Source: Citrobacter gillenii
GTDB taxonomy: Bacteria > Pseudomonadota > Gammaproteobacteria > Enterobacterales > Enterobacteriaceae
Assembly (NCBI RefSeq): GCF_013337685.1
Contig: NZ_SUQN01000003.1
Location: 372,001-436,000, forward strand
DNA: 64,000 nt
Reading direction: 5' to 3'
This document shows, in pieces, positions 1,498 to 36,146 of the stretch; the stretch's first letter is position 1, and every line of letters begins with the position of its first letter. The notes under the pieces are model-generated. The model searched no databases. It saw nothing but the letters and a program-made list of their open reading frames with translations, and had not been told where the DNA came from. The position numbers and the translations under genes are program-made.

Positions 1498-1601
1498 AGG
1501 CAGTCCCTCTGCGCCGGTATCAACAGGCGCAGTAAATCCTTCAGGCGTGGCAAAGCCTTGCCTGATGGCAATCATAAAATCACAACAGGGACGTCAGAAC
1601 G

Positions 1602-1632
1602 TCACTGTCTTACGTTTCCGGTAAGACAGTGA
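1602..1632 (-). promoter_or_regulatory. mgtA leader hairpin
   Basis: A perfect 12-bp inverted repeat (TCACTGTCTTAC / GTAAGACAGTGA) with a 7-nt loop lies in the transcribed leader between mgtL and mgtA. It sits where the Mg2+-responsive stem-loops of the mgtA leader are known in E. coli and Salmonella. Which of the alternative stems it is cannot be told without folding the whole leader of about 225 nt. Confidence 0.7.
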
Positions 1633-1640
1633 ATGCAGGC

Positions 1641-1694
1641 TTACCGGAAAGGGGTTTTTCTCCGTTTCGGGAGAGGGGTGGGATCGGGATCCAT
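1641..1694 (-). CDS. mgtL: MgtL, proline-rich mgtA leader peptide (17 aa)
   Basis: A 17-codon frame from the ATG at 1694 encodes MDPDPTPLPKRRKTPFR. The first nine residues match the proline-rich MgtL of Salmonella as I recall it (ending ...RRRLKLFR), and the tail is different. In Salmonella, slow translation of the proline codons or low Mg2+ changes leader folding so that transcription continues into mgtA. Five of 17 codons are for proline, one more than in the form I remember (P15 is extra). It sits 143 bp upstream of mgtA. Too short for ordinary gene callers; recognised from its sequence and place. Confidence 0.85.
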   Translation of the reverse strand: MDPDPTPLPKRRKTPFR

Positions 1695-1728
1695 ACAGCC
1701 TCCGGTAAGTGAATGATTTGCCCCGCGC

Positions 1729-22687: not shown

Positions 22688-23417
22688 TATGCCAGCTTGC
22701 CGCCTGTTTGATGAGATTTATTCCCGCTGGTTGGCGCAGTTCGAACGTTGGAAAAGTACCATGTTGCCACCGAATGAACTGCATAATCAGGCCGTTGAAT
22801 ACGCCAGCCAGACGGTGGCGGAATATAACCGACGCCTGAGCCGCGAACTGGGTACGCCGTTTCAGCAGCAGATTGACGCCGCCGTTTATGCCCTGGTCGC
22901 GCTGATTGATGAGTCCGTACTCTACGGTGACTGGCCCGCACTCTCCCTGTGGCAGTCCTGCCCGCTGGAGTATCATCTGTGGCAAACCCACAGCGCAGGG
23001 GACCAGATCCCCCGCAAGATCACCGCCCTGCTCAATGAACGCAACCCAGGTCAGCGCGATTTAGCCGCCCTGTATTTGCGCTGTCTGACGCTGGGTTTTG
23101 GCTCCCGGCGAGATGATTTTTCCCCGCAGGTACACCAGGAAACCTGCCGCCTCCTGTGGCATTTTGCCTTTCAGCATGATGCTCAATTCAACGATATTGC
23201 CCAACGCATGGCTTCCGCTGCGCTGGGTTCACCATTACAGCTTCCGGCGCATCGTCGTCTACCGGATAACTCACGCCTGCACCTGATTGCTGTCATCATA
23301 CTTCTGGCGCTACTGTTATTGAGTCAGCGCTTGTGGCTGAGTATTGAAGACGCCATCGGCGTGACTGCACTACCTGACTTCCCAGTGACTCAGTCCTGCC
23401 CGGGAGATGCCAAGTGA
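22668..23417 (+). CDS. tssL: TssL, T6SS inner-membrane protein (short form without peptidoglycan-binding domain)
   Basis: The ATG at 22668 follows AGGAGG and gives 249 aa (MTPVDPDMPACRLFDEIYSRW). It has the cytoplasmic helical hook domain with ALVALIDESVLYGDW and a single C-terminal membrane helix at about residues 203-225 (LHLIAVIILLALLLLSQRLW). No OmpA-like domain follows, as is normal for the short DotU-type TssL. It binds TssM to form the membrane channel. The open frame upstream lies inside tssK and is not used. Confidence 0.93.
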   Translation: MTPVDPDMPACRLFDEIYSRWLAQFERWKSTMLPPNELHNQAVEYASQTVAEYNRRLSRELGTPFQQQIDAAVYALVALIDESVLYGDWPALSLWQSCPLEYHLWQTHSAGDQIPRKITALLNERNPGQRDLAALYLRCLTLGFGSRRDDFSPQVHQETCRLLWHFAFQHDAQFNDIAQRMASAALGSPLQLPAHRRLPDNSRLHLIAVIILLALLLLSQRLWLSIEDAIGVTALPDFPVTQSCPGDAK

Positions 23418-26400
23418 CGCAGCCCTGGTTTACGCTACTGATTATTATGTTGATGCTGTTGGCGATTACCCTCTGGTGCGTCTGGTGGCAGTGGGAATAC
23501 CGCAACAATACGTTTACCCGCGCGCAAAAGGAGATCCAGCGCGCCTGCGGCGGTCAAGATCCCTACGACAGTATGCGTATCCTGATGCTGGGTAACGAAG
23601 AAGATAACCGCCTGCTCTGCCGTAGTTGGTCACTGACCGACGGTCAGGAACACTGGTTCGGGCAGTGGTGGTTTAACTCCCAGTGCAGCATTCTGTGCTT
23701 GCCGCAAACACTGCAAACCGCAGGGAGGAAGCGGCTTATTCGCCAGAACGACTGGCAAAAAATACTGGCTGCGCTAGTGAAAAGCCGCCCGCAGCGTCCG
23801 CTGGACGCGCTAATCATCACCCTGCCACTGGACGCGCTGAACGGTGATGATGTCACCCGCGCTAGCCTGCTGAACAACTGCCAACAAATTCAACAGGTGT
23901 GCGGGCTGAGTCTGCCCGTCTACCTGCTGATAAGTGGCATGGAATCTCTGGAAGGAACCGCCGCTCTGCTGGCGATACTGCCGGAGGATGCCCGCCGCAG
24001 CCCCATTGGCAGCGCAATACCTACTGCCAGAGAAGCTATCTGGAAACCACAGTGGATTGACGACGTGTTGGACAATGCCCGGATGTCGCTGCGACGACTC
24101 ATCACCGAACTCGGTGCTCTGCAAGGGAGCACGCCGGAAACACTGTTCCAGTTACCAGAAAACCTCCCGCAACTTGCCACGCCGCTACATGATTATTTCG
24201 ATACCTTGTTCAACAGCAATGCTCGCGATGAACCGCCGCTGCTGAGAGGGATCTGGTTTGTTGCGCGAACGATGGCAGAGGGCAAACCGCAGATGCAGTT
24301 TTGCCAGACGCTGCTGAGCGGGAAAATTGCCGCTGAACGCGGCCTTGCATTGCCCGTGCGTCGCCTGCTGCGCCTGAACCTGCGCCGCCATTTCATTACC
24401 CTTGCCTGCTATAGCTGTCTTTGTGTTCTGTGGCTGGCGGCAATGACCTGGAGCTGGCGATACCAGCACACCAACGCCGTACTATTGCACGATCGTCTGC
24501 AGGTTCTCGCCACAGGCGTCCGAGCCGATATTACTGGTGAGCGTTCTACCACGCTGTACTGGCGGGTACTCAACGGTATTCCACAGTGGCAGTTTCGTTC
24601 CGTCGTCTGGCCAGGCTCGCTGTTCAGCCACACCGATAAAAAATTGCGGGAGACGTTTAACAACGTCACCCTGATCAGCCTGTTGGTTCCCGCCACCAAC
24701 AGTATCTGCCTGCAAAATCAAGATGAAAGGGGTTCGGAGCAGGACGATCTGCTACCCGAAGAGCGTTACCAGCAGATTCAGCACTTGCTCGCTCAGGCAA
24801 AACAAATGGAGTCGCGCTATTTGCCGTTGCTACAATTGATGCAGATGAAGCAACCCACCGTGCAGACGTTGGCAAACGTCAGCGCCAGCATTTGGGACGT
24901 GACAGTTGACACCGACTCTTTGCCCTCGCAGGAGAAGCTCAACGAGATGTTTGCCACACTCAATCTCTCACGTCTGAAATTACCCGACGCCAGTGAACTG
25001 ACTCAGCGCAACAGCGTACAATTTTCTCACGAAACTATGCGCTGGCTGGAGCAAAACTATGGCAACACCAGCCTGGATAGCAACGAAGAGCAGCTCGAAC
25101 AACTGCTGGCGCTATTCGGCAATGGCTCCGGGGTTACCCCATTATTCGTCCGCTCACTGGTCCGGCAGGTTAGTCGCTTACAGGCAACGCTGACGACCAT
25201 CAATAACTTGAGCCGCGATGCAACGAACTCGCCAATCAGACTGCCACTGGATGAACTGCTCACTCAGGCACGAACCCTCAGGCTTATCGACAACAGCGTG
25301 GTTCAGGAACTGCTTCGCCACGAAACCCTACTACGCCAACGCTTTCTGGCGCAGGTTGATGGTTCCAGGCTGCACTTCTCCTCGTTAACTGAGCAATCCC
25401 CGGAAGGACAATTCAGCGTATCGACGGATATTCTGGCACTACAAAAAAGCTTGCGTGATTTACTTAATCAGCCCTTCTGGCAACAGGGAGCAAGTCAGCC
25501 TACCGAGACCTCCGTCGGTTATCCCGGTAATCTGCAACTTCAGCAAGCTCTGGCGCTGTATGGCGGATATGAGCGCTTTATACAGCAGCTTTCGGACAGC
25601 ATCTGGCGGCCTAAACTCACTATGCTGGCGCAACAGGCGGCGGAAAACGCCATGCGTCAGGCACTCTACGCAGGCGCACCTGAGGCGCCGGATCGCAGTA
25701 ATATCAGTACCGCCAGCGCGGATCGGGTCATTGACGCCTTTAGCCAGCTTAACCGCCCTCAGTTTGCCATTGTATTACGCCAGCAAACTGCCGCCCAGGT
25801 GATTAGCCGGGTACGTCAGGACGGTGGCGCGTTACTTCCGCCGATTAACCCTCCGGCGGTCAATTACGCTACGACAGAACAAGCTCAGGCTAGCGGGCAG
25901 AAAATTGTCGGGTGGGCTAGCGCACAAGCAGAGCAAATCTCCGGCGTACTGGTCCGCTATCAGCAGGATATTGACTGGCTCGACAAGCAGCGCCCATGGC
26001 TAACGGCAACGGATAACCAGATTATCGTTCGCTGGAGCAGTTCACTGGCGGCCATGCAACGACTTCAACAACAGGATCCTGGCAGTCCGCCGATGCAGAT
26101 GGCGACCCTTGCCGCCGTGCTACCGACGCTCTCCGCACAGAACTGCCAGAGTGAATTGGCGCAGTTTCGCAGCGATGGCAGTAACGATTTTTACGGTCAA
26201 TCGCTAAACGCTTTGGTAAACGCATCATTGCAAAAATGTCAGCAGTTACGCCAACAGGCCAGCATCGGCGCGGTACAGAAGATCTTCAATCTGTACAACA
26301 TCTGGCTTGCGGGGCGCTTTCCCTTTACCGCTGTGCCAAACGCGCCGGATGCTGATGTCGATCGGGTGCGCGAACTGACTCTTTTGCTGGCGCAACTCCC

Positions 26401-26953
26401 CGCTGAAACGCTATCCGAACAACCGCCACTGATTCAACAACTGGCAGCAGCACAACCGTTACTTTCGGCGTTGGTCAGCCCTGAAGGCGTGACGTTACGG
26501 GTCATCTGGCGAACCTCACGCAACCATGAGGCTGGCGCGGATCAGATTGCCGACTGGCGGCTTGTCGGCAATCAACAATCGATCAGCTACCCCGGCGGCT
26601 CGACGGACCTGCACTGGCGCAGCGGCGATAGTCTGAGCTTTAGTCTGCGCTGGGCAGCCAATTCCACCTGGCGTCCAATGCCAGGCCTGTCACAGACAGG
26701 CGTAACGGTAAGCGGTGATACTGGTCGTTGGCGCTGGCTGGGGGCATGGTCGCTGCTCAGGATGATTGAACAACAGCGCGTCGATGGCGCGCTGACGCAA
26801 CCGCTGCCGCTACGCTTTTCGCTCCCCGTAAGCGATGGTCAGAAGCCATTGCAGTCGACGGTATTTTGGCAGGTCACGTTGTTAGGTGCCCAAAGCAAAG
26901 CGCCGCTACCATGGATACCGCTTACCGAGCAGGGATTATCAAGAGGAAAATGA
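23414..26953 (+). CDS. tssM: TssM, T6SS inner-membrane channel protein (IcmF-like) with degenerate P-loop
   Basis: A GTG start overlapping the tssL stop (GTGA) gives 1179 aa. One membrane helix lies at residues 6-26 and another at about 325-345, with a cytoplasmic domain between; the long periplasmic part follows with TssM-like C-terminal blocks (WPMPG-like beta region, SWSLLRMI-type sequence). Where other TssM proteins have Walker A GxxxxGK[ST], this one reads LMLGNEEDNRLL (residues 57-68), so ATP binding looks lost. Only one N-terminal helix is clear where many TssMs have a hairpin. It spans the envelope between TssL and TssJ. Confidence 0.94.
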   Translation: MTQPWFTLLIIMLMLLAITLWCVWWQWEYRNNTFTRAQKEIQRACGGQDPYDSMRILMLGNEEDNRLLCRSWSLTDGQEHWFGQWWFNSQCSILCLPQTLQTAGRKRLIRQNDWQKILAALVKSRPQRPLDALIITLPLDALNGDDVTRASLLNNCQQIQQVCGLSLPVYLLISGMESLEGTAALLAILPEDARRSPIGSAIPTAREAIWKPQWIDDVLDNARMSLRRLITELGALQGSTPETLFQLPENLPQLATPLHDYFDTLFNSNARDEPPLLRGIWFVARTMAEGKPQMQFCQTLLSGKIAAERGLALPVRRLLRLNLRRHFITLACYSCLCVLWLAAMTWSWRYQHTNAVLLHDRLQVLATGVRADITGERSTTLYWRVLNGIPQWQFRSVVWPGSLFSHTDKKLRETFNNVTLISLLVPATNSICLQNQDERGSEQDDLLPEERYQQIQHLLAQAKQMESRYLPLLQLMQMKQPTVQTLANVSASIWDVTVDTDSLPSQEKLNEMFATLNLSRLKLPDASELTQRNSVQFSHETMRWLEQNYGNTSLDSNEEQLEQLLALFGNGSGVTPLFVRSLVRQVSRLQATLTTINNLSRDATNSPIRLPLDELLTQARTLRLIDNSVVQELLRHETLLRQRFLAQVDGSRLHFSSLTEQSPEGQFSVSTDILALQKSLRDLLNQPFWQQGASQPTETSVGYPGNLQLQQALALYGGYERFIQQLSDSIWRPKLTMLAQQAAENAMRQALYAGAPEAPDRSNISTASADRVIDAFSQLNRPQFAIVLRQQTAAQVISRVRQDGGALLPPINPPAVNYATTEQAQASGQKIVGWASAQAEQISGVLVRYQQDIDWLDKQRPWLTATDNQIIVRWSSSLAAMQRLQQQDPGSPPMQMATLAAVLPTLSAQNCQSELAQFRSDGSNDFYGQSLNALVNASLQKCQQLRQQASIGAVQKIFNLYNIWLAGRFPFTAVPNAPDADVDRVRELTLLLAQLPAETLSEQPPLIQQLAAAQPLLSALVSPEGVTLRVIWRTSRNHEAGADQIADWRLVGNQQSISYPGGSTDLHWRSGDSLSFSLRWAANSTWRPMPGLSQTGVTVSGDTGRWRWLGAWSLLRMIEQQRVDGALTQPLPLRFSLPVSDGQKPLQSTVFWQVTLLGAQSKAPLPWIPLTEQGLSRGK

Positions 26954-27876
26954 TGGAACATATTCAGGCATTACTGGCCCCCATTCAGGCGGATAATCCG
27001 TGCGGGGACTCTATCCGTTATTCACCCGAGTTCGACAGGCTGGTCGCCGCTCGCCAGCAGGATGACGAAACGCTGCCCACCGGCGTCTGGCAGAGTACGC
27101 CACGCCGTGCCGACTGGGACGAAGTTGCCAACATTGCCACTCTGCTGACGAAAACGCTCAGTAAGGATCTGGTGATTATGGGCTGGCTGGGGGAAGCGTG
27201 GATTAGGATTCGCGGCTTAGCTGCCCTACCCGATGCATTGGCATTAGTGACTCTGGCGCTTGAACATTACCCGGAGGAATTGCATCCCCAAATTAAAGAA
27301 GGTGACTATGACTATCGCGCCGCGCCACTGTGTTGGATAGCGCAACATTACGCCACGCTGGTCGCTGAAGCCTCGCTGTTTATCGCCCATGGGGAAACCG
27401 TCTCACTGACGCAGTGGCAGCAGGGAAAATTTTCTGACATTCCGCTACCCGGCGCAGACGAAGCGCCCCTTCAGCCTCTGGCATCCAGCATCGAGTGGCT
27501 CAAACGTCTCAATGCCGTCTGTCAGAGTTGGCCCGAAGCTTCAGCCCCCTCCTTCAGCTTGCTTGAACAAAAAATCAAAACTTGCCTGCAGGCGTTAGGA
27601 GGCAGCGCATTGCCAGTGCAACCGCAATCTGTCAGCGAGGAAAGCGCCCCAACATTCAGCAATAACGCCACATTTACCCATCGGGAGGAGGCATATCTGA
27701 TGATTAAACAGGTCGCAGACTACCTGGCGCGCACCGAACCACATAGCCCGGTACCCTATTTGCTGTACCGCGCCTTTGCCTGGGGGCACACACCGCTGCC
27801 GGAACTGCTCTCAGAACTGATTAATAGCGATGAATCCGCTCGCCGACTGTGGCGGCAACTGGGGGTGTTACCATGA
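26953..27876 (+). CDS. tssA: TssA, T6SS assembly cap protein (ImpA N-terminal domain)
   Basis: From the ATG at 26953 (six bases after AGAGGA) the product is 307 aa; an ATG one codon earlier overlaps the tssM stop and is also possible. The N-terminal block ADNPCGDSIRYSPEFDRL and the following YPEELHPQ region are the ImpA_N domain. The C-terminal part SPVPYLLYRAFAWG ... LPELLSEL is that of the short TssA class. TssA primes baseplate binding and caps sheath growth. It ends in an ATGA overlap with the next gene. Confidence 0.9.
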   Translation: MEHIQALLAPIQADNPCGDSIRYSPEFDRLVAARQQDDETLPTGVWQSTPRRADWDEVANIATLLTKTLSKDLVIMGWLGEAWIRIRGLAALPDALALVTLALEHYPEELHPQIKEGDYDYRAAPLCWIAQHYATLVAEASLFIAHGETVSLTQWQQGKFSDIPLPGADEAPLQPLASSIEWLKRLNAVCQSWPEASAPSFSLLEQKIKTCLQALGGSALPVQPQSVSEESAPTFSNNATFTHREEAYLMIKQVADYLARTEPHSPVPYLLYRAFAWGHTPLPELLSELINSDESARRLWRQLGVLP

Positions 27877-28265
27877 GTTGTCCAGGAGTCTGTACCGGCG
27901 CACTGCTACAATGTTCCTTTGGCATCGCGCCTGGTACGCTGAACGTACTGCCCACCAGTCGAACCATCGTCAGTAACATGCCAATGGCGAATATTATGGA
28001 CAACAAACCATTTGTGAATATTCTACCGTTCGCGATGTGCAACAGCATCGCCAACCCGACCGTTGCTGCCGCGACCGCCGCAGCGCTGGGCGTGCTGACG
28101 CCAATGCCGTGCATTCCCGCCACACCGGCACCCTGGGCGCCGGGATCACCCACGGTATTAGTGGGAAATATGCCCGCCCTTACCGCCCAGTCAACATTGA
28201 TCTGCATGTGGGGCGGCGTGATCCAGATTAGTTTTCCTGGGCAGATGACGACTGTTGTGGCGTAA
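27873..28265 (+). CDS. DUF4280 PAAR-like tip protein
   Basis: The ATG at 27873 overlaps the tssA stop (ATGA) and gives 130 aa. The pattern SCPGVCTGALLQCSFG, MCNSIANP, MPCIPATPAPWAPGSPTVLVG and CMWGGVIQI is that of DUF4280 proteins, which are PAAR-like: a small, glycine and cysteine-rich cone that sharpens VgrG and can attach effectors. No toxin domain follows. It is the last gene of the plus-strand operon. The vgrG gene it should cap is at the far end of the other operon. Confidence 0.88.
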   Translation: MSCPGVCTGALLQCSFGIAPGTLNVLPTSRTIVSNMPMANIMDNKPFVNILPFAMCNSIANPTVAAATAAALGVLTPMPCIPATPAPWAPGSPTVLVGNMPALTAQSTLICMWGGVIQISFPGQMTTVVA

Positions 28266-28331: not shown

Positions 28332-30245
28332 TTAAAAACGACTGACGCACTCCATGGCAACCGTTTTGAACTCGGTAAAATTCTGACACGCACAGAGCCG
28401 CGTCATAGCGCGTTCACGCAGGAAGGTGACGAAAATATCGTAGATGGCCATCGCTTCTTCATACTCGCTTTTACTAATGGCCAGCAAGAAGATCACATGT
28501 GCGGTTTCGTCTCCCCAGGCGATGCCCTGCGGGGCGAGCACCGTATAGACCACCGTTTTTTTAGCCAGCAAACCGAGGGAGTGCGGCAGGGCAATGCTAT
28601 CACCCAGCAGGGTGCTGACGATGGCCTCGCGCTCAACGACGGAGTCGAGAAACTCCGCATCGACAAAGCCTTCATCGTGCAGCTGGCCGCATAACGTGTT
28701 GAACAGCGTCTGTTGATCCATCGGTTCGTCAATAATGCGAAAATGGGCGGCGTCGAAGAACTTGTTCAGCATCCACGGGCGGGTGCGATCCACCAGCACC
28801 AGCTTACCAATTTGCTCCAGCTGATAATCAGTGGGGAACGGGGCGATCATCACCACAGGCTTATCTTTTTCATTTATTCGTGCGGTAGAAATCACGAAGT
28901 CTTCGCTGATGGCGTCCCGTTGTTCGTAGTCGCGCAGCGTCACGGTGCCGACAATCTCAATCTGCGGATATTTACGCGCCAGCACCGCTTCAATCATTCG
29001 CGCCATGGCGTTTCCTGCGTCACAAACCAACAGCACACGAGGCTGTCGCTGGTAACCGATGTTGTAACTACGTTCCAGTCCAACGCCAATGTGCAGCACG
29101 AGGAAGCCAATCTCATTTTCGCTAATGGTATACGGGGTGTATTTCCCCCAGCCTGACACGGCGGCCAGCGTCATATCCCATGCCATCGGATAGTGCTGTT
29201 TAATATTTTCCAGCAGCGGATTGGGGATCATGATCTGGTAGCGTACCCGGGTGATCATGGTCTTAATATGAGTCAGTAGATCGGCATGCAGTTGCCGATC
29301 GTTCATCAGGTTGTAATTGTACTGCGTGTTGATAAAACGCAGGATGTAATTGACCAGCGCTTCGTCATCATCGGCGTTAATCGCGCTGGGGGCGATATCC
29401 TGTACCTGACGGGCGGCGATATGTACCTTCAGCCAGTTCTCCTCAAACACGGAGAGTGGTTTGTCTGCCAGTTGGTGCAGGACCGAAGCAATTTCCCGCG
29501 TCGCCAGGCACACCTCATGTTCCACCTCTTCTGCGGTAAATTCCGGCAGCGGATAGCCCTCGCTAATCCGGCGTACCGCCACCGCACAATATAAGCGCAG
29601 AAAGAGCTCTCCTTCGTCGGTCAGGCGAATATGAAAGCGGGTGAAAATATCCTGTAAAACCGGCTGCAGCTGTTGCGGGACGCCCGCATTGAGCGCCTCT
29701 TCCATCACCAGCGGATGGGCCGGATCCTGCTGCGCCAGCATCCACAGAAGATCGGTCAGACAGGCGCGGATCGCCATCTCACTGCCAAACAGCTTCATCC
29801 CATGTCGGGGGCGCGTTTCCAGCGTCAGTCGATAGCGTTGCAGGTGCTCACGCACGTCTGCCATGTCGTTTTGCAGCGTCGCCCGGCTGATGAACCATTC
29901 ATCAGCTAAATCTTCCAGCTTCAGCGAAAAAGCCGATGTCAGAAAACGAACCACCAGCCAGTGTACCCGCTCCTGGCTGGTACGCGGAATGCGCAGCAAC
30001 CGCTCGGGCTGCTGCGTTTGTAACGTCTGGTAGCGTGCCGGATCGTCAATTTTCAACTGATAACCGTTGCCCCGGCTAAGGACAAACTGCGCGCCATACG
30101 GGGTGAGAAGCGCGTTCAGCGCGGTAATATCCGCCCTGACCGTGCGTGTGGAAACCGACAACCGCTGCGCCAGCTCATCCTGCGGCAGCGCCTCGCTTTG
30201 CAGCATGCCAAACAGCTGCGCTAAACGTTGGTTGGGGAATCGCAC
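28332..30245 (-). CDS. BglG/MtlR-type PRD regulator with PTS IIB and IIA domains
   Basis: A GTG at 30245, after GAGGAAAC, starts a 637-aa protein. Order of domains: two helix-turn-helix segments (about 1-150), PRD1 and PRD2 (about 170-395; conserved His in FLVLHIGVG, H385), a IIB-like domain with the cysteine motif LVCDAGNAMA (C408), and a IIA domain with SIALPHS (H555). Regulators of this build sense PTS phosphorylation and usually activate transcription by binding DNA. It is the last gene of the operon, 21 bp after the DgaF-like gene, and most likely controls it. It differs from Salmonella DgaR, a sigma-54 activator. Confidence 0.9.
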   Translation of the reverse strand: MRFPNQRLAQLFGMLQSEALPQDELAQRLSVSTRTVRADITALNALLTPYGAQFVLSRGNGYQLKIDDPARYQTLQTQQPERLLRIPRTSQERVHWLVVRFLTSAFSLKLEDLADEWFISRATLQNDMADVREHLQRYRLTLETRPRHGMKLFGSEMAIRACLTDLLWMLAQQDPAHPLVMEEALNAGVPQQLQPVLQDIFTRFHIRLTDEGELFLRLYCAVAVRRISEGYPLPEFTAEEVEHEVCLATREIASVLHQLADKPLSVFEENWLKVHIAARQVQDIAPSAINADDDEALVNYILRFINTQYNYNLMNDRQLHADLLTHIKTMITRVRYQIMIPNPLLENIKQHYPMAWDMTLAAVSGWGKYTPYTISENEIGFLVLHIGVGLERSYNIGYQRQPRVLLVCDAGNAMARMIEAVLARKYPQIEIVGTVTLRDYEQRDAISEDFVISTARINEKDKPVVMIAPFPTDYQLEQIGKLVLVDRTRPWMLNKFFDAAHFRIIDEPMDQQTLFNTLCGQLHDEGFVDAEFLDSVVEREAIVSTLLGDSIALPHSLGLLAKKTVVYTVLAPQGIAWGDETAHVIFLLAISKSEYEEAMAIYDIFVTFLRERAMTRLCACQNFTEFKTVAMECVSRF

Positions 30246-30266
30246 GTCAGTTTCCTCACTAATCAG

Positions 30267-31007
30267 TTAACCTACGCAGGCCCGGGTCATTGCCAACAGC
30301 TGGCGCACATCGTCAGGCCGGGTGTTGCCGCTCACCTTATCAATAATAGAACTATAAATGTGAGGAATGATTTTGCTCACGCCGGCATCAAGGGCAATCT
30401 GCAGAATCTCAGTAAAGTTGTCCAGGTCGATACCGCCCGTAGGCTCCAGCCAGAAGTCATGCCGGGCGCAGGCTTCAGCCACCGCCTGATATTCGTCGCG
30501 GCATTGCAGACCGCCCATCGGAAAGTATTTAATCGAGCTGCCGCCCATGTCTTTCAGCAGTGCAATGGCGGTTGCCACCGGTACCACACCATCTGCTGAC
30601 TGGCTGCTGAGCGGGCCGGTGGAGATCTTCACCCAGCCCGGCGTACCGGTTGGCGAAACCAGACCGTTGACCACCGTTTGAGATTGCCCCAGCAGCGCCC
30701 GACTGGTCGCCACGCCGGTAAACACCTGATTGACGTGCTGCGGCTGCACCTGACGGGAAATTTCACTAACCATCGCCGACTGGTTCGGATCGCCCGCCCC
30801 GAGACCAACGGACAGCGCATTGTCGATAAGCGCCGCGTATTCACGCATATCCGCCACCGCGCTTTCAACGCTCGGGTAATTTTTGGACAGCACACCGACC
30901 AGCACATGGCCTTCGGCCGCCGCGTAAATATCACTGGCGTTCTCTTTTGACCCCGCCAGCACGTTCAGGCAGACGCGATCGCGATAAAAGTTAGGCGTCA
31001 GTTTCAT
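30267..31007 (-). CDS. DgaF-like aldolase (2-dehydro-3-deoxy-phosphogluconate aldolase family)
   Basis: The 246-aa TIM-barrel protein belongs to the EF_0839-type family that includes Salmonella DgaF. The likely Schiff-base lysine is K160 in SSIKYFPMGG, resembling the K-x-FP motif of KDPG aldolases. DgaF splits KDPG into pyruvate and glyceraldehyde 3-phosphate. The start overlaps the DgaE-like gene by four bases (ATGA), so the two enzymes are made together. The exact substrate here is inferred from the pairing, not shown. Confidence 0.85.
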   Translation of the reverse strand: MKLTPNFYRDRVCLNVLAGSKENASDIYAAAEGHVLVGVLSKNYPSVESAVADMREYAALIDNALSVGLGAGDPNQSAMVSEISRQVQPQHVNQVFTGVATSRALLGQSQTVVNGLVSPTGTPGWVKISTGPLSSQSADGVVPVATAIALLKDMGGSSIKYFPMGGLQCRDEYQAVAEACARHDFWLEPTGGIDLDNFTEILQIALDAGVSKIIPHIYSSIIDKVSGNTRPDDVRQLLAMTRACVG

Positions 31008-32122
31008 ACTTTTTTCTCCTGCCCGGTCACGTCCGCAATACGACGCGCCACTATCTCCAGCTGCGCGCGGTCTACACTGCGCACGTCCGCTTCAATAATG
31101 CCTTCGTTGGCTTTGTAGCCGCGGAAGTAGATCGCATACTCGCCCTGCTTAAGCGCCTCAACCAGCTCGCCGGTGGCGATCCCGGTTACCGCTTCGTCAA
31201 ACTTAATTTCGGTACGCGCAATGTCGCGCCCTGCGCTGTCCCACACCACCCGCGCACTGACGCCATTGAAGGTATTCAGCGTATTAATAAACGGCGTCAT
31301 TTTTTCGACCATCTCCGCGCCGCTCTCTTTCTGCGCGCTGAGGTACAGTTCAATGGCGCAGGTCAGCCCGAGAATGCCCTCTTTGCCGACCTTCATCGCC
31401 CGGCCAATACCTGCCGTCTGGCGTTTCACCCACTCCACATATTGTGTTTTACCAATCACCAGGCCGCTGGTTGGCCCTTCGATCGCCTTGGCGCCGCTGT
31501 AAATCACCAGGTCCGCACCGACACGGTAGTAGCACTGCAAATCTTCTTCCGCCGCTGCATCCACAATCAGCGGCAGATTATGCGTACGTGCGACCACGGC
31601 GGCCTGCTCTACGCTGAGCATGCTTTTTTGTACGCAGTGGTGCGATTTGATATACAGAATGGCCGCCGTGCGCGGCGAGATGGCGGCTGTCAGCTGCGCC
31701 GCCGAGCATTCATTGGCGTAGCCGGCCTCGACTAACTTGCCACCGCCAAGCGCCACCATGCTGCCAACCGGTGCGCCAAAGTTGACGTTATGGCCGCGAG
31801 GCAGCACGATTTCGTTGTTGTCGATTGGTGTGGCGTGCAGGTTTTCCAGCAGCCAGTCGCTGTCTTTTACCAGCACAGCCGCCACTGACAGGGCAATCCC
31901 CGCCGAGGCACAGGACACCACCGTGGCGCCTTCCACCTCGAGCAACTTCGCGATGTAGTCTCCGGTTTTATTGACCAGATCTTTCATTTCGAAGTACTGA
32001 TTCATCCCCGCCATCGCGGCCTGTACCACTTCGGGTCGCGGCGTAGAGACCCCAAGCGCAGTCATGCGCCCAGAGGTATTAATAACCTGTTTTAAATGGT
32101 ATTTCTCAAAAATCGAAGGCAT
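31004..32122 (-). CDS. DgaE-like PLP enzyme (SelA-related, D-glucosaminate-6-phosphate ammonia-lyase family)
   Basis: The 372-aa protein has the fold-type I PLP pattern: VDAAAEED (D188 for the pyridine nitrogen) and IYSGAKAIEGPTSG (K212 as the PLP lysine). It belongs to the SelA-like group that includes Salmonella DgaE, which removes ammonia from D-glucosaminate 6-phosphate to give KDPG. It overlaps the amidohydrolase gene upstream by 17 bp and the aldolase downstream by 4 bp. Activity on an amino-sugar acid phosphate is likely; the identity of the acid is open. Confidence 0.85.
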   Translation of the reverse strand: MPSIFEKYHLKQVINTSGRMTALGVSTPRPEVVQAAMAGMNQYFEMKDLVNKTGDYIAKLLEVEGATVVSCASAGIALSVAAVLVKDSDWLLENLHATPIDNNEIVLPRGHNVNFGAPVGSMVALGGGKLVEAGYANECSAAQLTAAISPRTAAILYIKSHHCVQKSMLSVEQAAVVARTHNLPLIVDAAAEEDLQCYYRVGADLVIYSGAKAIEGPTSGLVIGKTQYVEWVKRQTAGIGRAMKVGKEGILGLTCAIELYLSAQKESGAEMVEKMTPFINTLNTFNGVSARVVWDSAGRDIARTEIKFDEAVTGIATGELVEALKQGEYAIYFRGYKANEGIIEADVRSVDRAQLEIVARRIADVTGQEKKV

Positions 32123-33239
32123 GTTCCACGCTCCCTTGTTCGGTCATATAGCCCTTGCCTGCACGTATTGCAGCAAGCGGTACCAGCAGTTGTTCAGCCT
32201 GCAGGCTGTCGTTTTCGGCATCGACCAGCACGGCGGGCTGGCGCTTCAGCGTAAAGAGGGTGAGATCGGCATCCAGACCGACCTGAAGTCGGCCTTTATT
32301 TTTCAGGCGCAGGCCGTCGGCGGCACTGGCGGTCACGCACTCAATGACCTGCGGGAGCGACATACCGATGGCGAGAAATTTCGACATTACGTTGGCCAAT
32401 GAATGCACCGGGCCACTGATGCGGTTGCGGCAGTAAATATCTGAGCTGATGGTGTGCGGCAAAATGCCTAAGCTGATGGCGCGTTTCGCCACCGCAAAGC
32501 TCAGACTGGCGGTACCGTGTCCAACATCGAGGCGTACGCCGCGCGAAATCGCCCGCGTTACCGAGGCCCGTAACTCGCCTTCTGGCGTCAGAATACGGTT
32601 CGGTTTGCCGTTATAGCAGTGGGTAATAATGTCGCCCGCCGTCAGGCGTTCGGCGACCTCATCCAGATCCGGCGGGTTGTTACCGATGTGCACCATTAGC
32701 GGCAGGTCACCATTCTGCGCTTGCATCGCTTTGGCGTGGTCCAGCGGGATAATGCCATTTTCACCGACCACGCTGCTGCTCATCCGCGCCTTCAGGCCGA
32801 CAATAAAATCCGGGTGACGTTGCACCGCCTGCTTCACCGCGTCAGCGTCGATATTAGCCATATTGGCCAGCTCGTTTTGCGCAATCAGCCCCACGCGGGA
32901 AATATTCAGCAAGGCATAAACATCGGTGGTCGCTTCACGGGTTAAGGTATAGAAATCATCAATATCATCAGCGCCGGTGCTACCGGCATCCACCACCGTG
33001 GTGACGCCGGTGGCAATCCCGATGCTGTCAGGCTGGTCATGATAAATCGGGGATTTCGGGTAGCAGTGGACGTGAGAATCAATCCACCCGGCGCTGACGT
33101 AGCACTCACCGCGTAAATTGACGGTTTTCACCGCCGGATCGGTTATCTCGCCCAGCGCCGCAATTTTGCCGTCCTTGACCGCAATATCGCTCACCGTATC
33201 GTCTACCAGACGCGCATGGCGCAGGAGTAAATCAAACAT
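32106..33239 (-). CDS. Amidohydrolase-family metalloenzyme (EF_0837/AHA_3915 type)
   Basis: The ATG at 33239, five bases after AGGAGA, gives 377 aa. The metal motif DSHVH (H56 and H58), a lysine in FIVGLKARMSSS likely to be carboxylated, further histidines and an aspartate in HTISSDIY fit the dihydroorotase/deacetylase-like amidohydrolase superfamily. Members of this subgroup are found beside DgaE/DgaF-like genes. It could deacylate the imported compound or open a lactam or cyclic amide before the lyase step; this is inference from context. Confidence 0.85.
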   Translation of the reverse strand: MFDLLLRHARLVDDTVSDIAVKDGKIAALGEITDPAVKTVNLRGECYVSAGWIDSHVHCYPKSPIYHDQPDSIGIATGVTTVVDAGSTGADDIDDFYTLTREATTDVYALLNISRVGLIAQNELANMANIDADAVKQAVQRHPDFIVGLKARMSSSVVGENGIIPLDHAKAMQAQNGDLPLMVHIGNNPPDLDEVAERLTAGDIITHCYNGKPNRILTPEGELRASVTRAISRGVRLDVGHGTASLSFAVAKRAISLGILPHTISSDIYCRNRISGPVHSLANVMSKFLAIGMSLPQVIECVTASAADGLRLKNKGRLQVGLDADLTLFTLKRQPAVLVDAENDSLQAEQLLVPLAAIRAGKGYMTEQGSVEHAFDF

Positions 33240-33270
33240 CACACTCTCCTGTAGAAAGAGGAAATCGGTT

Positions 33271-33350
33271 GCCGGATGGCGACATAAATGTCTTATCCGG
33301 CCTACAACGAGTACGATGCTGTAGGCCTGATAAGCGCAGCGCCATCAGGC
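33271..33350. repeat. BIME inside the DUF4310/amidohydrolase operon
   Basis: Two REPs in opposite orientation (GCCGGATGGCGA ... TTATCCGGCCTAC and GTAGGCCTGATAAGC ... GCCATCAGGC) fill the 113-bp gap between the membrane-protein genes and the enzyme genes. All other gaps in this operon are under about 25 bp or are overlaps, so the element divides the message into a transport half and an enzyme half. Confidence 0.85.
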
Positions 33351-33352
33351 AA

Positions 33353-33997
33353 TTAGCTAATCGCAATCGGGAAGATGGAACCGAGGATCATGGCCCCAAG
33401 GATCGCACCGCCGGTGATCGGTTTCTGCCACAGGTAAAACAGCAGCGCCCCGGCCAGAGAACCGACGCCGATAGGGATGGAAGCCGTCATCGCGCTGAGG
33501 ATGATCAGCGGTCCAAGGAAGCGACCTGAGGCGTTACCGGCTCCCATCATCACGTCCGCCCCGTAGGTCGAATCGCTCTGATTGATGGTGAACTTACGCG
33601 CCAGAATGATGATGTAGCCAATTGCCAGGCCAATCACCAAACCGGTGACCAGCGAGGCAGCAAAGTTAGCGACCGGGAAAATAATGCCAGCCCCCAGCAG
33701 CAGTGCCGGCACGCCCAAACCAACGCCGGTCTGGATGGCCCCGCCGATGTCCAGGATACCCACCAGCGAACCTTCAATAATGCGGGCAAACAGGAAGCTC
33801 GCACCAAACGCCGCTACCGCCCCGTAAGAACCGGTGTCCATTCCCGCTTTCAGCATTGCCACAAAGGCCACTTCGTTAAACGCACCGATGCCATACAGGT
33901 AGTACATGTGCGTGCCGGCAAAGACGCCGGAGGAGAGCAGTCCCACGAAGATCGGGAACGACCAGTCGGCGAACCAAAAACCTTTATTCTGTTCCAT
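33353..33997 (-). CDS. DUF4310 family inner-membrane protein
   Basis: The 214-aa, very hydrophobic protein has about six or seven membrane helices with Gly-rich stretches (LGVPALLLGAGIIFPVANF, MMGAGNASGRFLGPL). GGAGG precedes the ATG. It matches the DUF4310 (EF_0833/AHA_3914-type) family as I recall it. It lies directly after the DUF4311 gene (11 bp); the pair probably form one membrane complex, the transport part of the operon. The transported compound and the energy source are unknown. Confidence 0.85.
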   Translation of the reverse strand: MEQNKGFWFADWSFPIFVGLLSSGVFAGTHMYYLYGIGAFNEVAFVAMLKAGMDTGSYGAVAAFGASFLFARIIEGSLVGILDIGGAIQTGVGLGVPALLLGAGIIFPVANFAASLVTGLVIGLAIGYIIILARKFTINQSDSTYGADVMMGAGNASGRFLGPLIILSAMTASIPIGVGSLAGALLFYLWQKPITGGAILGAMILGSIFPIAIS

Positions 33998-34008
33998 TGT
34001 GGCCTCCG

Positions 34009-34785
34009 TTATTTGCCGCTGAGTGAGTTGTGGATCAGTTCCAGCCAGTTAGGCACGGTCAGATGGAAGGATTCGATCATCTTCATATCGAAGCCGCGGA
34101 AGAAACCACTCAGCACGAACAGCGCCACGATCGCCACCATCATCACTTTAGTGACGTGGTTCCAGCCGCTCTCTTCGACGCCTTTACCAATCAAAATACC
34201 GAGCACCAGACCCGGTACGGCGTTGCCCATTATCAGCTGCGCCGCGCCGCCAAAGACGGTCGCCCAGAAACCCGATTTCTTCCCGGCATCGATTGCCGCC
34301 AGCCAGAAGATCACCGGCATCACGGTGTTGACCAGCAGGTTTGCCGCCGGTACCAGCACCTTCACGGCAGTAACCTGCAGCGCCGCCGGTACGGATGACG
34401 CGGTCAGGTTCAGGAAGGTCACGACAATCATGCCAATCACGCCACAGGCAATCGCCATGCGTCTGGGGTCATGCAGCGTCTCACCGACATTACGGTTTTT
34501 GAGCATCAATGCCGCCGCACCCCAGTTAGGGATGATGCGGTGGTCAACGTCCTGCGTGAACGCCCCCGCCGCAACGGATGAAGCCCAGGCGTTAAAGAAG
34601 AAGCCCAGGCCGAATGAGAAGTGAGAAGCAGGATCCCCTTCACAGGAATTCAGCTCCCCCAGAGTACGAAACGCGCCCATCCCCTGAGAGGTAGGCGCAT
34701 GAAACATGCGTGCAGCCCCAGCGCCGACACCTACGCCAACCAGCGCGCCGATGATGAGCGATTTTATTAATATTATCAGGAACAT
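34009..34785 (-). CDS. DUF4311 family inner-membrane protein
   Basis: The ATG at 34785 (MFLIILIKSLIIGALVGVGV) gives 258 aa; the longer frame overlaps the DUF4312 gene. It has an N-terminal membrane helix, a loop with CEGDPASHFSFGLGFFFNAWASS, and further helices. This is the DUF4311 (EF_0832/AHA_3913-type) family. It sits between the DUF4312 and DUF4310 genes. With DUF4310 it is the likely permease; no known transporter signature is visible. Confidence 0.85.
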   Translation of the reverse strand: MFLIILIKSLIIGALVGVGVGAGAARMFHAPTSQGMGAFRTLGELNSCEGDPASHFSFGLGFFFNAWASSVAAGAFTQDVDHRIIPNWGAAALMLKNRNVGETLHDPRRMAIACGVIGMIVVTFLNLTASSVPAALQVTAVKVLVPAANLLVNTVMPVIFWLAAIDAGKKSGFWATVFGGAAQLIMGNAVPGLVLGILIGKGVEESGWNHVTKVMMVAIVALFVLSGFFRGFDMKMIESFHLTVPNWLELIHNSLSGK

Positions 34786-34807
34786 AATTATGCCTTTTAA
34801 TAGTGAA

Positions 34808-35107
34808 TCAGCGTTGCGTGACGAAATCCACCTTCTCAAGATTGATGGCAGTCACGTTGACGGTCACATCCAGCTCCACGCTGAAAGTGCGTCTTTCGCG
34901 GCGCAAAAAGAGGAATAAAAACGCCTCTTTACGCACCGTTTCACGCGCTTGAACAACCTGCACATCCTGTGGCTCAATACGCAGTAAGATATGCGGTGAC
35001 CCTTTCATCACCGCGGCCTGAACGTGGTTCAGGGCATCGGCAAAGGCGCGCGCTTTGGCGTCACCCTTACCCGTGACTCTCACCGTTGTGGTGAATTGCT
35101 CTTTCAT
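34808..35107 (-). CDS. DUF4312 family small protein
   Basis: The ATG at 35107 gives 99 aa (MKEQFTTTVRVTGKGDAKARAF), an alpha/beta-looking soluble protein with no membrane helix and a C-terminal stretch of beta strands (FSVELDVTVNVTAINLEKV). It matches DUF4312 (EF_0831/AHA_3912 type). The start is 2 bp after the SFCGS stop, and the ATG has no strong site of its own, suggesting coupling. It is probably a cytoplasmic accessory of the membrane pair. Confidence 0.83.
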   Translation of the reverse strand: MKEQFTTTVRVTGKGDAKARAFADALNHVQAAVMKGSPHILLRIEPQDVQVVQARETVRKEAFLFLFLRRERRTFSVELDVTVNVTAINLEKVDFVTQR

Positions 35108-35109
35108 AC

Positions 35110-35472
35110 TTAAGCGCCGTATTTCTTTTGCCACGCCTGCACCAGGCGCTCGCCGAGCTCTTCTTTGTCCATAAAGCCGAATCCCAGCACGTTACAACCT
35201 TCGTTGATGGCGGTGACGCCCTCTTCAACCGAGCGCATACCGTATTTGGCTTTGTAACCATATTTGGTCTGCGCGGTGATAGCCCCCGCGCCGCCGCTGC
35301 CGCAAAACGAAATGCCAAAGGTGGCGTTTTCCGCTTTCATCATGTCACCCAGCTTCATATCTGCCGCCACGCCCGGTACCACGACCGCACGTCCGCCTGC
35401 TTTCTCAACGCCTGCCGCCACTTTCTGGCCTTTACCCAGACGATCGCCAATCACCACAGTAATCTGTTCCAT
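35110..35472 (-). CDS. Glycine-rich SFCGS family protein
   Basis: The ATG at 35472 after AAGGAG gives 120 aa (MEQITVVIGDRLGKGQKV). The family's name motif lies at residues 55-59 (SFCGS, C57), followed by a Gly/Ala-rich loop GSGGAGAI. It is small, soluble and single-domain, somewhat like DUF2620 protein YhfU of E. coli. The conserved cysteine after a beta strand resembles a PTS IIB site in position only; phosphorylation is a hypothesis. The open frame upstream runs into the PRD gene. Confidence 0.85.
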   Translation of the reverse strand: MEQITVVIGDRLGKGQKVAAGVEKAGGRAVVVPGVAADMKLGDMMKAENATFGISFCGSGGAGAITAQTKYGYKAKYGMRSVEEGVTAINEGCNVLGFGFMDKEELGERLVQAWQKKYGA

Positions 35473-35482
35473 CTTGTGCTCC

Positions 35483-35803
35483 TTAAAGGTTCTCTTTTGC
35501 GACTTCGAAATGTACCGACAGCAGCCAGGCCTCTTCTTCAGGAAGGTTGCCAAACTCCGCCACGATGTCGCGGGCAAGTGCCATTGATTCGGCAGATATT
35601 TCATCAAATAAGCTGGCATCGACTTCAGGTAGCGGTTCACCCGTCACCGAGCGGTGCGCCATGGCGCGAACATGCGATGTCAGCATTTGTTCCTGTACGG
35701 CATTGGGAATGATGTGGCGTGCGCGCAACAGGGCATACACCTGCGCCAGCATGCGTTCGGCCAGTTCACCAGACGGTGTCACCGATTCCCCCCTGTCATT
35801 CAT
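35483..35803 (-). CDS. Single-PRD-domain protein (EF_0829/AHA_3910 type), first gene of the operon
   Basis: The ATG at 35803, five bases after GGAG, gives 106 aa; an ATG six codons upstream has no such site. The whole protein is one PTS-regulation domain, with histidines at H44 (LTSHVRAMAH) and H98 (LLSVHFEVAK) in the positions where PRDs are phosphorylated. No DNA-binding domain is present. A lone PRD beside a small cysteine protein and membrane proteins is also the arrangement of the yhf operon of E. coli (YhfY, YhfU, YhfT). It may couple the transporter to PTS phosphorylation. Confidence 0.83.
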   Translation of the reverse strand: MNDRGESVTPSGELAERMLAQVYALLRARHIIPNAVQEQMLTSHVRAMAHRSVTGEPLPEVDASLFDEISAESMALARDIVAEFGNLPEEEAWLLSVHFEVAKENL

Positions 35804-35889: not shown

Positions 35890-35909
35890 TTTCCACTTCG
35901 AAGTGGAAA
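35890..35909. promoter_or_regulatory. 20-bp perfect palindrome upstream of the PRD/SFCGS operon
   Basis: TTTCCACTTCGAAGTGGAAA is a perfect palindrome 87 bp upstream of the first gene of the operon. It is the only strong dyad in the 343-bp gap before cybC and is a good candidate binding site for the BglG/MtlR-type regulator at the end of the operon. The gap otherwise holds one REP and no gene I can support. Confidence 0.55.
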
Positions 35910-36083
35910 GGTGAGCAACGATAGTGATCTGTGCCGCAAAAAGGGCGGGATTGGCTATTTATCGCCTGGATAACGTGATGGGGATCGCACGAGATAGCAG
36001 GGAAACCGCAAGCGGCAGGAAAAACGGGTTGGCGTTAAAAGTTAAAAAATGTGATGGGTATAGCGTTTACTTATGGGGGCGGT

Positions 36084-36120
36084 GCCGGATGGATACGCTG
36101 TCGCGTCTTATCCGGCCTAC
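36084..36120. repeat. REP element downstream of cybC
   Basis: GCCGGATGGATA at one end and CTTATCCGGCCTAC at the other form a REP 26 bp from the cybC stop, with a partial second arm (GGCCGGATA) right after it. As in many REPs it follows the end of a gene and may protect the cybC transcript. Confidence 0.8.
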
Positions 36121-36146
36121 GACGTCGCGCAGGCCGGATACATAAA

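Follow-up and report, generated by a model that had tools for sequence, protein, structure and literature searches.

Two described pathways stand closest to the locus reported here. The Salmonella dga operon serves the use of D-glucosaminate, as stated in an excerpt citing Miller et al. 2013 (PMC7396535), and in the ong pathway of Pseudoalteromonas prydzensis, according to excerpts of PMC9537276 and PMC12017989, GlcNAc1A is deacetylated, deaminated by a pyridoxal phosphate (PLP) enzyme and taken to 2-keto-3-deoxygluconate-6-phosphate (KDG-6-phosphate). A further gene set, EF_0829-EF_0839 / AHA_3910-3917, is catalogued through 'hypoth_equivalog' model names, and EF0838/EF0839 occur in PMC7701990, which in the part available suggests amino-sugar use. 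We analyzed a nine-gene operon of this third type at positions 28332-35803 of a 64,000-nucleotide stretch of Citrobacter gillenii (assembly GCF_013337685.1, contig NZ_SUQN01000003.1, positions 372,001 to 436,000), hereafter called the window. The operon is real, widely shared and already catalogued, and its carrier is likely of a new type. Our tentative proposal is that it combines import linked to the phosphotransferase system (PTS) with the breakdown of an amino-sugar acid carrying an N-acyl group, N-acetyl-D-glucosaminate being the most likely candidate. New in this analysis are the gene order shared between loci, an upstream palindrome, the fold of the SFCGS protein, an arginine triad in the lyase, an HPr-Enzyme I gene beside the operon in Bartonella, an accompanying lactonase gene and the co-occurrence with dga.

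The nine reading frames are intact and run on the minus strand from 35803 to 28332 as one operon, in the order lone PRD, SFCGS protein, DUF4312, DUF4311, DUF4310, amidohydrolase, lyase, aldolase and regulator. Eight of the nine proteins scored above the curated NCBIfam thresholds for models of the EF_0829-EF_0839 type, the lyase via TIGR01437, while no NCBIfam model was above cut-off for the regulator. An initial annotation, made from the DNA alone, had recognized the nine-gene operon with these families, and both coordinates and models agree with it. It had also spoken of an undescribed system, which is true of the function and not of the gene set; four of the proteins are without known function.

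When each species was represented by a single genome, scanning found 468 stretches encoding a DUF4310 relative. The best 80 of the 468, all close to the query, were compared together with 15 further genome stretches and four plasmid-collection records, giving 99 loci, 97 of them with a DUF4310 match. The order PRD-SFCGS-DUF4312-DUF4311-DUF4310-amidohydrolase-lyase-aldolase-(lactonase)-regulator was identical in 95 of the 97 DUF4310-bearing loci, which is far above chance. The loci are mostly from Enterobacteriaceae and are therefore not independent; the DUF4310 of the window was matched at 100% in eight Citrobacter genomes. The two exceptions were a locus broken by contig ends (L113) and an Enterococcus faecalis plasmid record (L008). 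In the latter, the block from PRD to DUF4310 keeps its order, the regulator comes first and is only 20% identical to that of the window, DUF4310 is separated from the amidohydrolase by genes for a IIC of the lactose/cellobiose family, a small protein and a protein of MupG fold, and the aldolase is followed by a KDG-kinase-like (PfkB) gene. Similarity to the E. faecalis proteins was 73% for SFCGS, 70% for DUF4310 and 66% for DUF4311, whereas the amidohydrolase reached 45% and the lyase, for which L013 was used, 52%. No other proteins of the operon are as conserved as SFCGS and the membrane pair.

A few loci depart from this picture in their details. In one genome (G683, locus L112) the entire cassette is decayed: SFCGS, DUF4310, amidohydrolase, aldolase and regulator are fragments and the lyase alone is still full length. 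In L118 the aldolase and regulator genes stand about 3 kb apart, the other sequence in between containing two unassigned open reading frames, and in the E. faecalis record the gene of the DgaF-type aldolase is broken into two frames (L008:15717-16472) and absent from the gene table. Searches further afield were negative: megablast of 4.8 kb of the operon against complete E. coli genomes found no match, an E. coli genome used as control lacked DUF4310, none of 22 pattern matches in viral contigs was a relative, and PHROGs returned nothing below E 0.05. No DUF4310 was found in 397 genomes of the order of G043, which belongs to another class, in a search that gave no signal anywhere.

The predicted function of the cassette follows from its enzymes. 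The lyase (31004-32122, minus strand) is a DgaE-family PLP ammonia-lyase that scored 603 bits against TIGR01437, the model of the broad DgaE family (cut-off, 385). Each of the 98 cassette lyases with a length of 350 amino acids or more, those of E. faecalis and Bartonella included, has His163, the SGAK lysine, Arg301, Arg332 and Arg346. The SGAK lysine is residue 213 here, which does not fit the Lys-217 of PMC9529869, whereas the numbers given there for the His and for Arg-301/332/346 agree with ours. The aldolase (30267-31007, minus strand; TIGR03581) is of the KDG-6-phosphate, DgaF type: it reached 390 bits against the DgaF equivalog model NF047796 (cut-off, 300), and the DgaF of the same genome reached 349 bits; its relatives with known structure are 3m0z, 3lm7 and 3nzr. 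DgaE/DgaF-type chemistry, as predicted in the initial annotation, is supported.

The gene preceding the lyase encodes a metal-dependent amidohydrolase of the EF_0837 type and putative N-deacylase (32106-33239, minus strand; TIGR03583). Residues H57, H59, K151, H185, H208 and D268, numbered from a GTG at 33242 (the ATG is at 33239), were each kept with no more than one exception among 98 sequences; we take them to be the binuclear metal ligands, and the metal site is intact, in line with the amidohydrolase predicted earlier. Relatives with known structure are 8wzy, 2ics and 2ogj, and enzymes from work on cog3964 reportedly act on acetyl-(R)-mandelate and N-acetyl-D-serine (Atu3266). Additionally, a lactonase gene (PF10282) lies between aldolase and regulator in 54 of the 97 loci, and the N termini of 13 of 14 inspected by eye among these 54 look like signal peptides. 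A secreted lactonase would be consistent with a substrate that is an aldonic acid or the corresponding lactone. Taken together, catabolism of an amino-sugar acid is very likely.

D-glucosaminate itself has a separate system in this bacterium. Elsewhere in the genome there is a seemingly complete canonical dga operon, with DagR (1545 bits), DgaE (705 bits) and DgaF all over cut-off, three proteins that best match mannose-family IIB, IIC and IID, all under curated cut-offs, and a further small protein that matched nothing at the E-value applied. Among 13 genomes of the genus, the cassette-type lyase score was found in all 13 and a true DgaE also in 10. Because one genome seems to hold the whole dga operon as well, the cassette appears not to be the D-glucosaminate system, and the extra amidohydrolase indicates an N-acylated substrate. 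The earlier statement that neither a mannose-type PTS nor a sigma-54 activator exists here is therefore true of the operon, whose nine genes include no mannose-family PTS subunit and no DagR, and has to be qualified for the genome. We name N-acetyl-glucosaminate, as a best guess, because the ong pathway shows the same chemical logic with other proteins.

Manual docking on DgaE places the 6-phosphate of its ligand near Arg301, Arg332 and Arg346, according to an excerpt of PMC9529869. Since these three residues are invariant in the cassette lyases, whereas a DgaE-like relative linked to an ATP-binding cassette (ABC) importer has a Cys at 346, the lyase may act on a phosphorylated acid, and the phosphate is probably in place before the lyase step. 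This relative belongs to a cluster from another class of the same phylum (L192:2500-11669), in which an EF_0837-like amidohydrolase and the DgaE-like enzyme are accompanied, in the place of the DUF set, by an ABC importer of the peptide type that consists of an ATPase, two permeases and a binding protein of family 5. This cluster possibly represents a pathway for the free, unphosphorylated acid.

The same cluster bears on how the acid would enter the cell. DUF4311 (258 amino acids; 34009-34785, minus strand; TIGR03580) and DUF4310 (214 amino acids; 33353-33997, minus strand; TIGR03579) are both hydrophobic by hydropathy, as expected of the membrane proteins proposed initially, and hhalign found nothing between the two. 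At most one exception was seen at 142 of 258 positions of DUF4311 (99 sequences) and at 135 of 214 positions of DUF4310 (98 sequences). DUF4312 (99 amino acids; 34808-35107, minus strand; TIGR03578) has no hydrophobic segment by hydropathy. We infer that the DUF set is likely an importer. The initial reading of these proteins as a transporter gains one outside support from the ABC importer of L192, but the support is narrow: a DgaE-like partner was found in just 1 of 17 amidohydrolase loci examined among 23 with sub-cut-off scores; further loci had peptide-type ABC genes within the stretch and no DgaE-like gene. Alternatively, the DUF4310-4312/SFCGS/PRD block could be a membrane sensor for the regulator, with import by a general transporter encoded elsewhere. 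The presence of a PRD and the strongly conserved polar motifs of DUF4311 would fit a sensor, but two large, extremely conserved membrane proteins kept with three catabolic enzymes in a fixed order in 95 of 97 loci, together with an ABC importer beside the related enzymes in L192, make it very improbable.

A link between the operon and PTS phosphorylation is supported by the regulator, the lone PRD and a neighboring gene in Bartonella. The regulator (28332-30245, minus strand; GTG start) carries in Pfam an HTH_11 domain, an Mga domain, two PRD stretches and EIIA_2; a IIB-like cysteine, C408, was recognized in its sequence. His326 and His385 were invariant in 98 of 98 sequences, the IIA His555 was kept in 97 of 98 and the IIB Cys408 in 95 of 98. 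The lone PRD (106 amino acids; 35483-35803, minus strand) is identified by its TIGR03582 match, which is the sole basis of the assignment, Pfam giving E 0.016 for a longer frame and nothing at E 0.001 for the 106-residue form. No further domain was found in it. His44 and His98 were present in 98 of 98 aligned sequences, and we predict the protein to be a phospho-carrier. On a Bartonella plasmid (L009), a fused HPr-Enzyme I gene lies 64 nucleotides after the regulator of the same operon, and a second, near-identical plasmid has the same annotation. These findings agree with the PTS link suggested initially.

Upstream of the operon lies the palindrome TTTCCACTTCGAAGTGGAAA (35890-35909), for which no second site with up to 2 mismatches was found in the 4.9-Mb genome. 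Of the 97 loci having a PRD gene, 95 contain its frame, TTTCC-N10-GGAAA, at a distance of 400 to 479 nucleotides ahead of the stop codon of that gene, 66 of them with the palindrome exactly as in the window, compared to 11 of 2300 random 700-bp stretches, a count that omitted stretches containing CCACTT. The arms partly covary (A/T in most loci, G/C in Bartonella, T/A in L109, from a genome of Pasteurellaceae size), while other arm positions do not (A/C in several loci). The frame is missing in E. faecalis and in L073, where 17 of 20 positions match. We thus predict that the palindrome is an operator bound by the regulator of the operon. In E. faecalis, a perfect inverted repeat, GTTGCACTTTTATAAGTGCAAC, precedes a T run upstream of the regulator gene and may be a terminator; its core, CACTT/AAGTG, resembles the enterobacterial palindrome. 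An Aeromonas caviae locus (L012) has the cassette PRD gene and the palindrome, yet its DUF4310 match covers just 36 residues.

The SFCGS protein (120 amino acids; 35110-35472, minus strand; TIGR03577) was modelled with an RpiB/LacAB fold and an invariant cysteine loop, and in a profile alignment its Cys57 falls on the RpiB cysteine. Fold and cysteine-glycine loop are what the model has in common with the RpiB/LacAB isomerases; SFCGS differs from them in being shorter and in lacking the C-terminal segment, and it scored 15.4 bits against Pfam RpiB (PF02502), under the gathering cut-off of 24.7. The fold and the position of Cys57 could also mean that SFCGS is an active RpiB-type aldose-ketose isomerase making a pathway intermediate, rather than a transport subunit. 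Besides the low Pfam score, the residues that we take to be catalytic in RpiB argue against it: the column of the RpiB histidine (HNDAN stretch) holds Asn in 94, Lys in 3 and Ala in 1 of 98 SFCGS sequences, and the protein stops short of the GGRH segment. The histidine argument is a weak one, as just 5 of the 9 RpiB/LacAB-type sequences compared have it themselves; the segment was seen in 4 of the 9. Since the route from an amino-sugar acid to KDG-6-phosphate requires no isomerase step, we consider an isomerase role improbable.

From these components, the following pathway can be proposed. Where present, the lactonase would open the lactone outside the inner membrane, and DUF4310/DUF4311 would bring the acid into the cell as part of a carrier built from DUF4310, DUF4311, DUF4312 and SFCGS. 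The acid would be phosphorylated at O6, with phosphoenolpyruvate, Enzyme I and HPr as the source of phosphate. The best candidates for its last carriers are the lone PRD (His44, His98) and SFCGS (Cys57); that these two hand the phosphate on is, on its own, unlikely. The amidohydrolase would then take off the acyl group, the DgaE-type enzyme would strip ammonia to give KDG-6-phosphate, and the DgaF-type aldolase would cleave this product, the overall yield being acetate, ammonia, pyruvate and glyceraldehyde-3-phosphate. The PRD/IIA regulator may sense PTS phosphorylation and act at the palindrome.

Several observations weigh against this proposal. The 98 sequences include many close relatives, so that the residue counts are not independent. 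The lyase scored 371 bits against the DgaE equivalog model NF047797, under its cut-off of 600, and the arginine triad stems from a docking proposal, two of the three arginines being present also in the ABC-linked relative of L192. DUF4310, DUF4311, DUF4312 and SFCGS had no match to PTS families (EIIA, EIIB, EIIC or EIID) in Pfam or NCBIfam, and the DUF4311 model (mean predicted local distance difference test, 73.1) matched no fold in the PDB. DUF4312 has no invariant His or Cys in the alignment, and the set is therefore without an obvious IIA. The two Bartonella plasmids amount in effect to one event, and their HPr-Enzyme I may serve the regulator only. Furthermore, 17 of the 20 cassette genomes encode a KdgK that scores above cut-off, the exceptions being G698 and G738, both rated 100% complete, and G672 (75% complete), so that the phosphate could come later, as in ong. 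KdgK was also tried as the sole source of phosphate and stands as a possible one on the same count.

The last two points lead to an alternative in which import takes place without phosphorylation: DUF4310/4311/4312/SFCGS would be a secondary transporter, the free acid would be deacylated and deaminated, a separate KdgK would phosphorylate 2-keto-3-deoxygluconate (KDG), and the PTS would act on the regulator only. The ong pathway, in its excerpted description, is a precedent, and in E. faecalis a KDG-kinase-like PfkB gene adjoins the operon. However, this kinase has no relative in the other 96 DUF4310 loci, Arg301, Arg332 and Arg346 are present in all 98 lyases, and G698 and G738 are without KdgK over cut-off, although other PfkB proteins could substitute there. 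We regard unphosphorylated import as somewhat unlikely.

A link to chitin through LPMO_10 was tried as a predictor and rejected: this family was found in 5 of 15 cassette-positive genomes, namely, four genomes of family f256 and G672, and in 32 of 133 cassette-negative ones, the positive group including G683 with its decayed cassette only. The lack of such an association counts against N-acetyl-D-glucosaminate and speaks for a second alternative, that the same machine handles another substrate, either a different acylated 2-amino-2-deoxy aldonic acid or a non-acetyl N-acyl compound, carbamoyl and lactam forms included. This would also be consistent with 42 fixed differences between the cassette lyase and 11 true DgaE sequences and with the seemingly complete dga operon already present for D-glucosaminate. 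On the other hand, the aldolase passes the DgaF cut-off with a higher score than the genome's own DgaF, which points to the same product, KDG-6-phosphate. A substrate other than N-acetyl-D-glucosaminate is quite possible.

A bolder version of the PTS-linked proposal is that DUF4310/DUF4311 together with SFCGS, DUF4312 and the lone PRD form a new, non-homologous PTS permease, of which YhfY/YhfU/YhfT of E. coli would be a second branch. Phosphate would pass from HPr to the lone PRD, on to the SFCGS cysteine in replacement of Enzyme IIB, and finally to the sugar acid in the membrane pair, which would be unlike any known Enzyme IIC. The parallel with the yhf genes, drawn in the initial annotation, gained no support as homology: hhalign gave probabilities of 0.2% and 0.4% for YhfT against DUF4311 and DUF4310, respectively, and 0.6% for SFCGS against YhfU, from profiles so shallow (Neff <2) that a distant kinship could go unseen. 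Direct homology of DUF4310/4311 to the yhf membrane proteins was accordingly not supported, which is a further point against our proposal, and YhfU resembles RpiB weakly (24.9%). We consider the permease version quite unlikely.

The surroundings of the operon offered few further clues. Visual inspection showed REP-like repeats where the DUF4310 and amidohydrolase genes are spaced apart (33242-33353) and at about 36040-36140, upstream of the operon. A scan of the window for sigma-70 promoters performed no better than on shuffled sequence, and terminator-like sites (13 versus 8.6 expected) were not used as evidence. Genes that look to be of the type VI secretion kind occupy 23414-28265 and end about 67 bases from the last gene of the operon; tssA and tssM are annotated near the cassette on the Bartonella plasmids too. 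The sole Rfam match was a Magnesium-II riboswitch (RF01056, 115.7 bits; 1596-1709, minus strand), far from the operon.

The literature searched yielded no paper naming DUF4310, DUF4311 or DUF4312, none that names two together of six further terms of the kind of TIGR03577, TIGR03580 and TIGR03582, and none testing this importer; papers found with 'sfcgs' are unrelated by their listing, and nothing on point appeared among the matches listed for yhfY or stand-alone PRD proteins. If the proposed pathway is true, amino-sugar acids have a further importer family, and KDG-6-phosphate can be reached by a second PTS-linked route within one cell. If the permease version is true, the PTS would include a type of Enzyme II without kinship to those known so far, assembled from a regulator domain and an isomerase fold.

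Compared to the known systems, the cassette shares its last two steps with the Salmonella dga operon, and its lyase and aldolase are 43% and 50% identical to the dga copies of its own genome. The two differ in what precedes these steps and in control: dga relies on mannose-family PTS import under DagR, and the cassette has the DUF set, the amidohydrolase and a PRD/IIA regulator. The E. faecalis EF set, whose models recognize all proteins of our operon except the regulator, differs in the position of the regulator and in the IIC, MupG-fold and KDG-kinase-like genes around it. In the E. coli yhfS-yhfZ operon (L170), as in the cassette, a lone PRD occurs, here YhfY, clustered with the putative membrane protein YhfT and with YhfU, which is small and has a CNTGAGA loop. 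The ong pathway, as described in the excerpt of PMC9537276, uses an SSS symporter, the D-aminoacylase-like OngB, OngC, KdgK and a MurR/RpiR regulator, whereas the nine cassette genes include no SSS importer, no MurR/RpiR regulator and no KdgK, and the cassette amidohydrolase is only weakly similar to PpOngB (E 8e-5). Nevertheless, as far as these excerpts go, both have in common an amidohydrolase-type deacetylation, a PLP-dependent deamination and KDG-6-phosphate.

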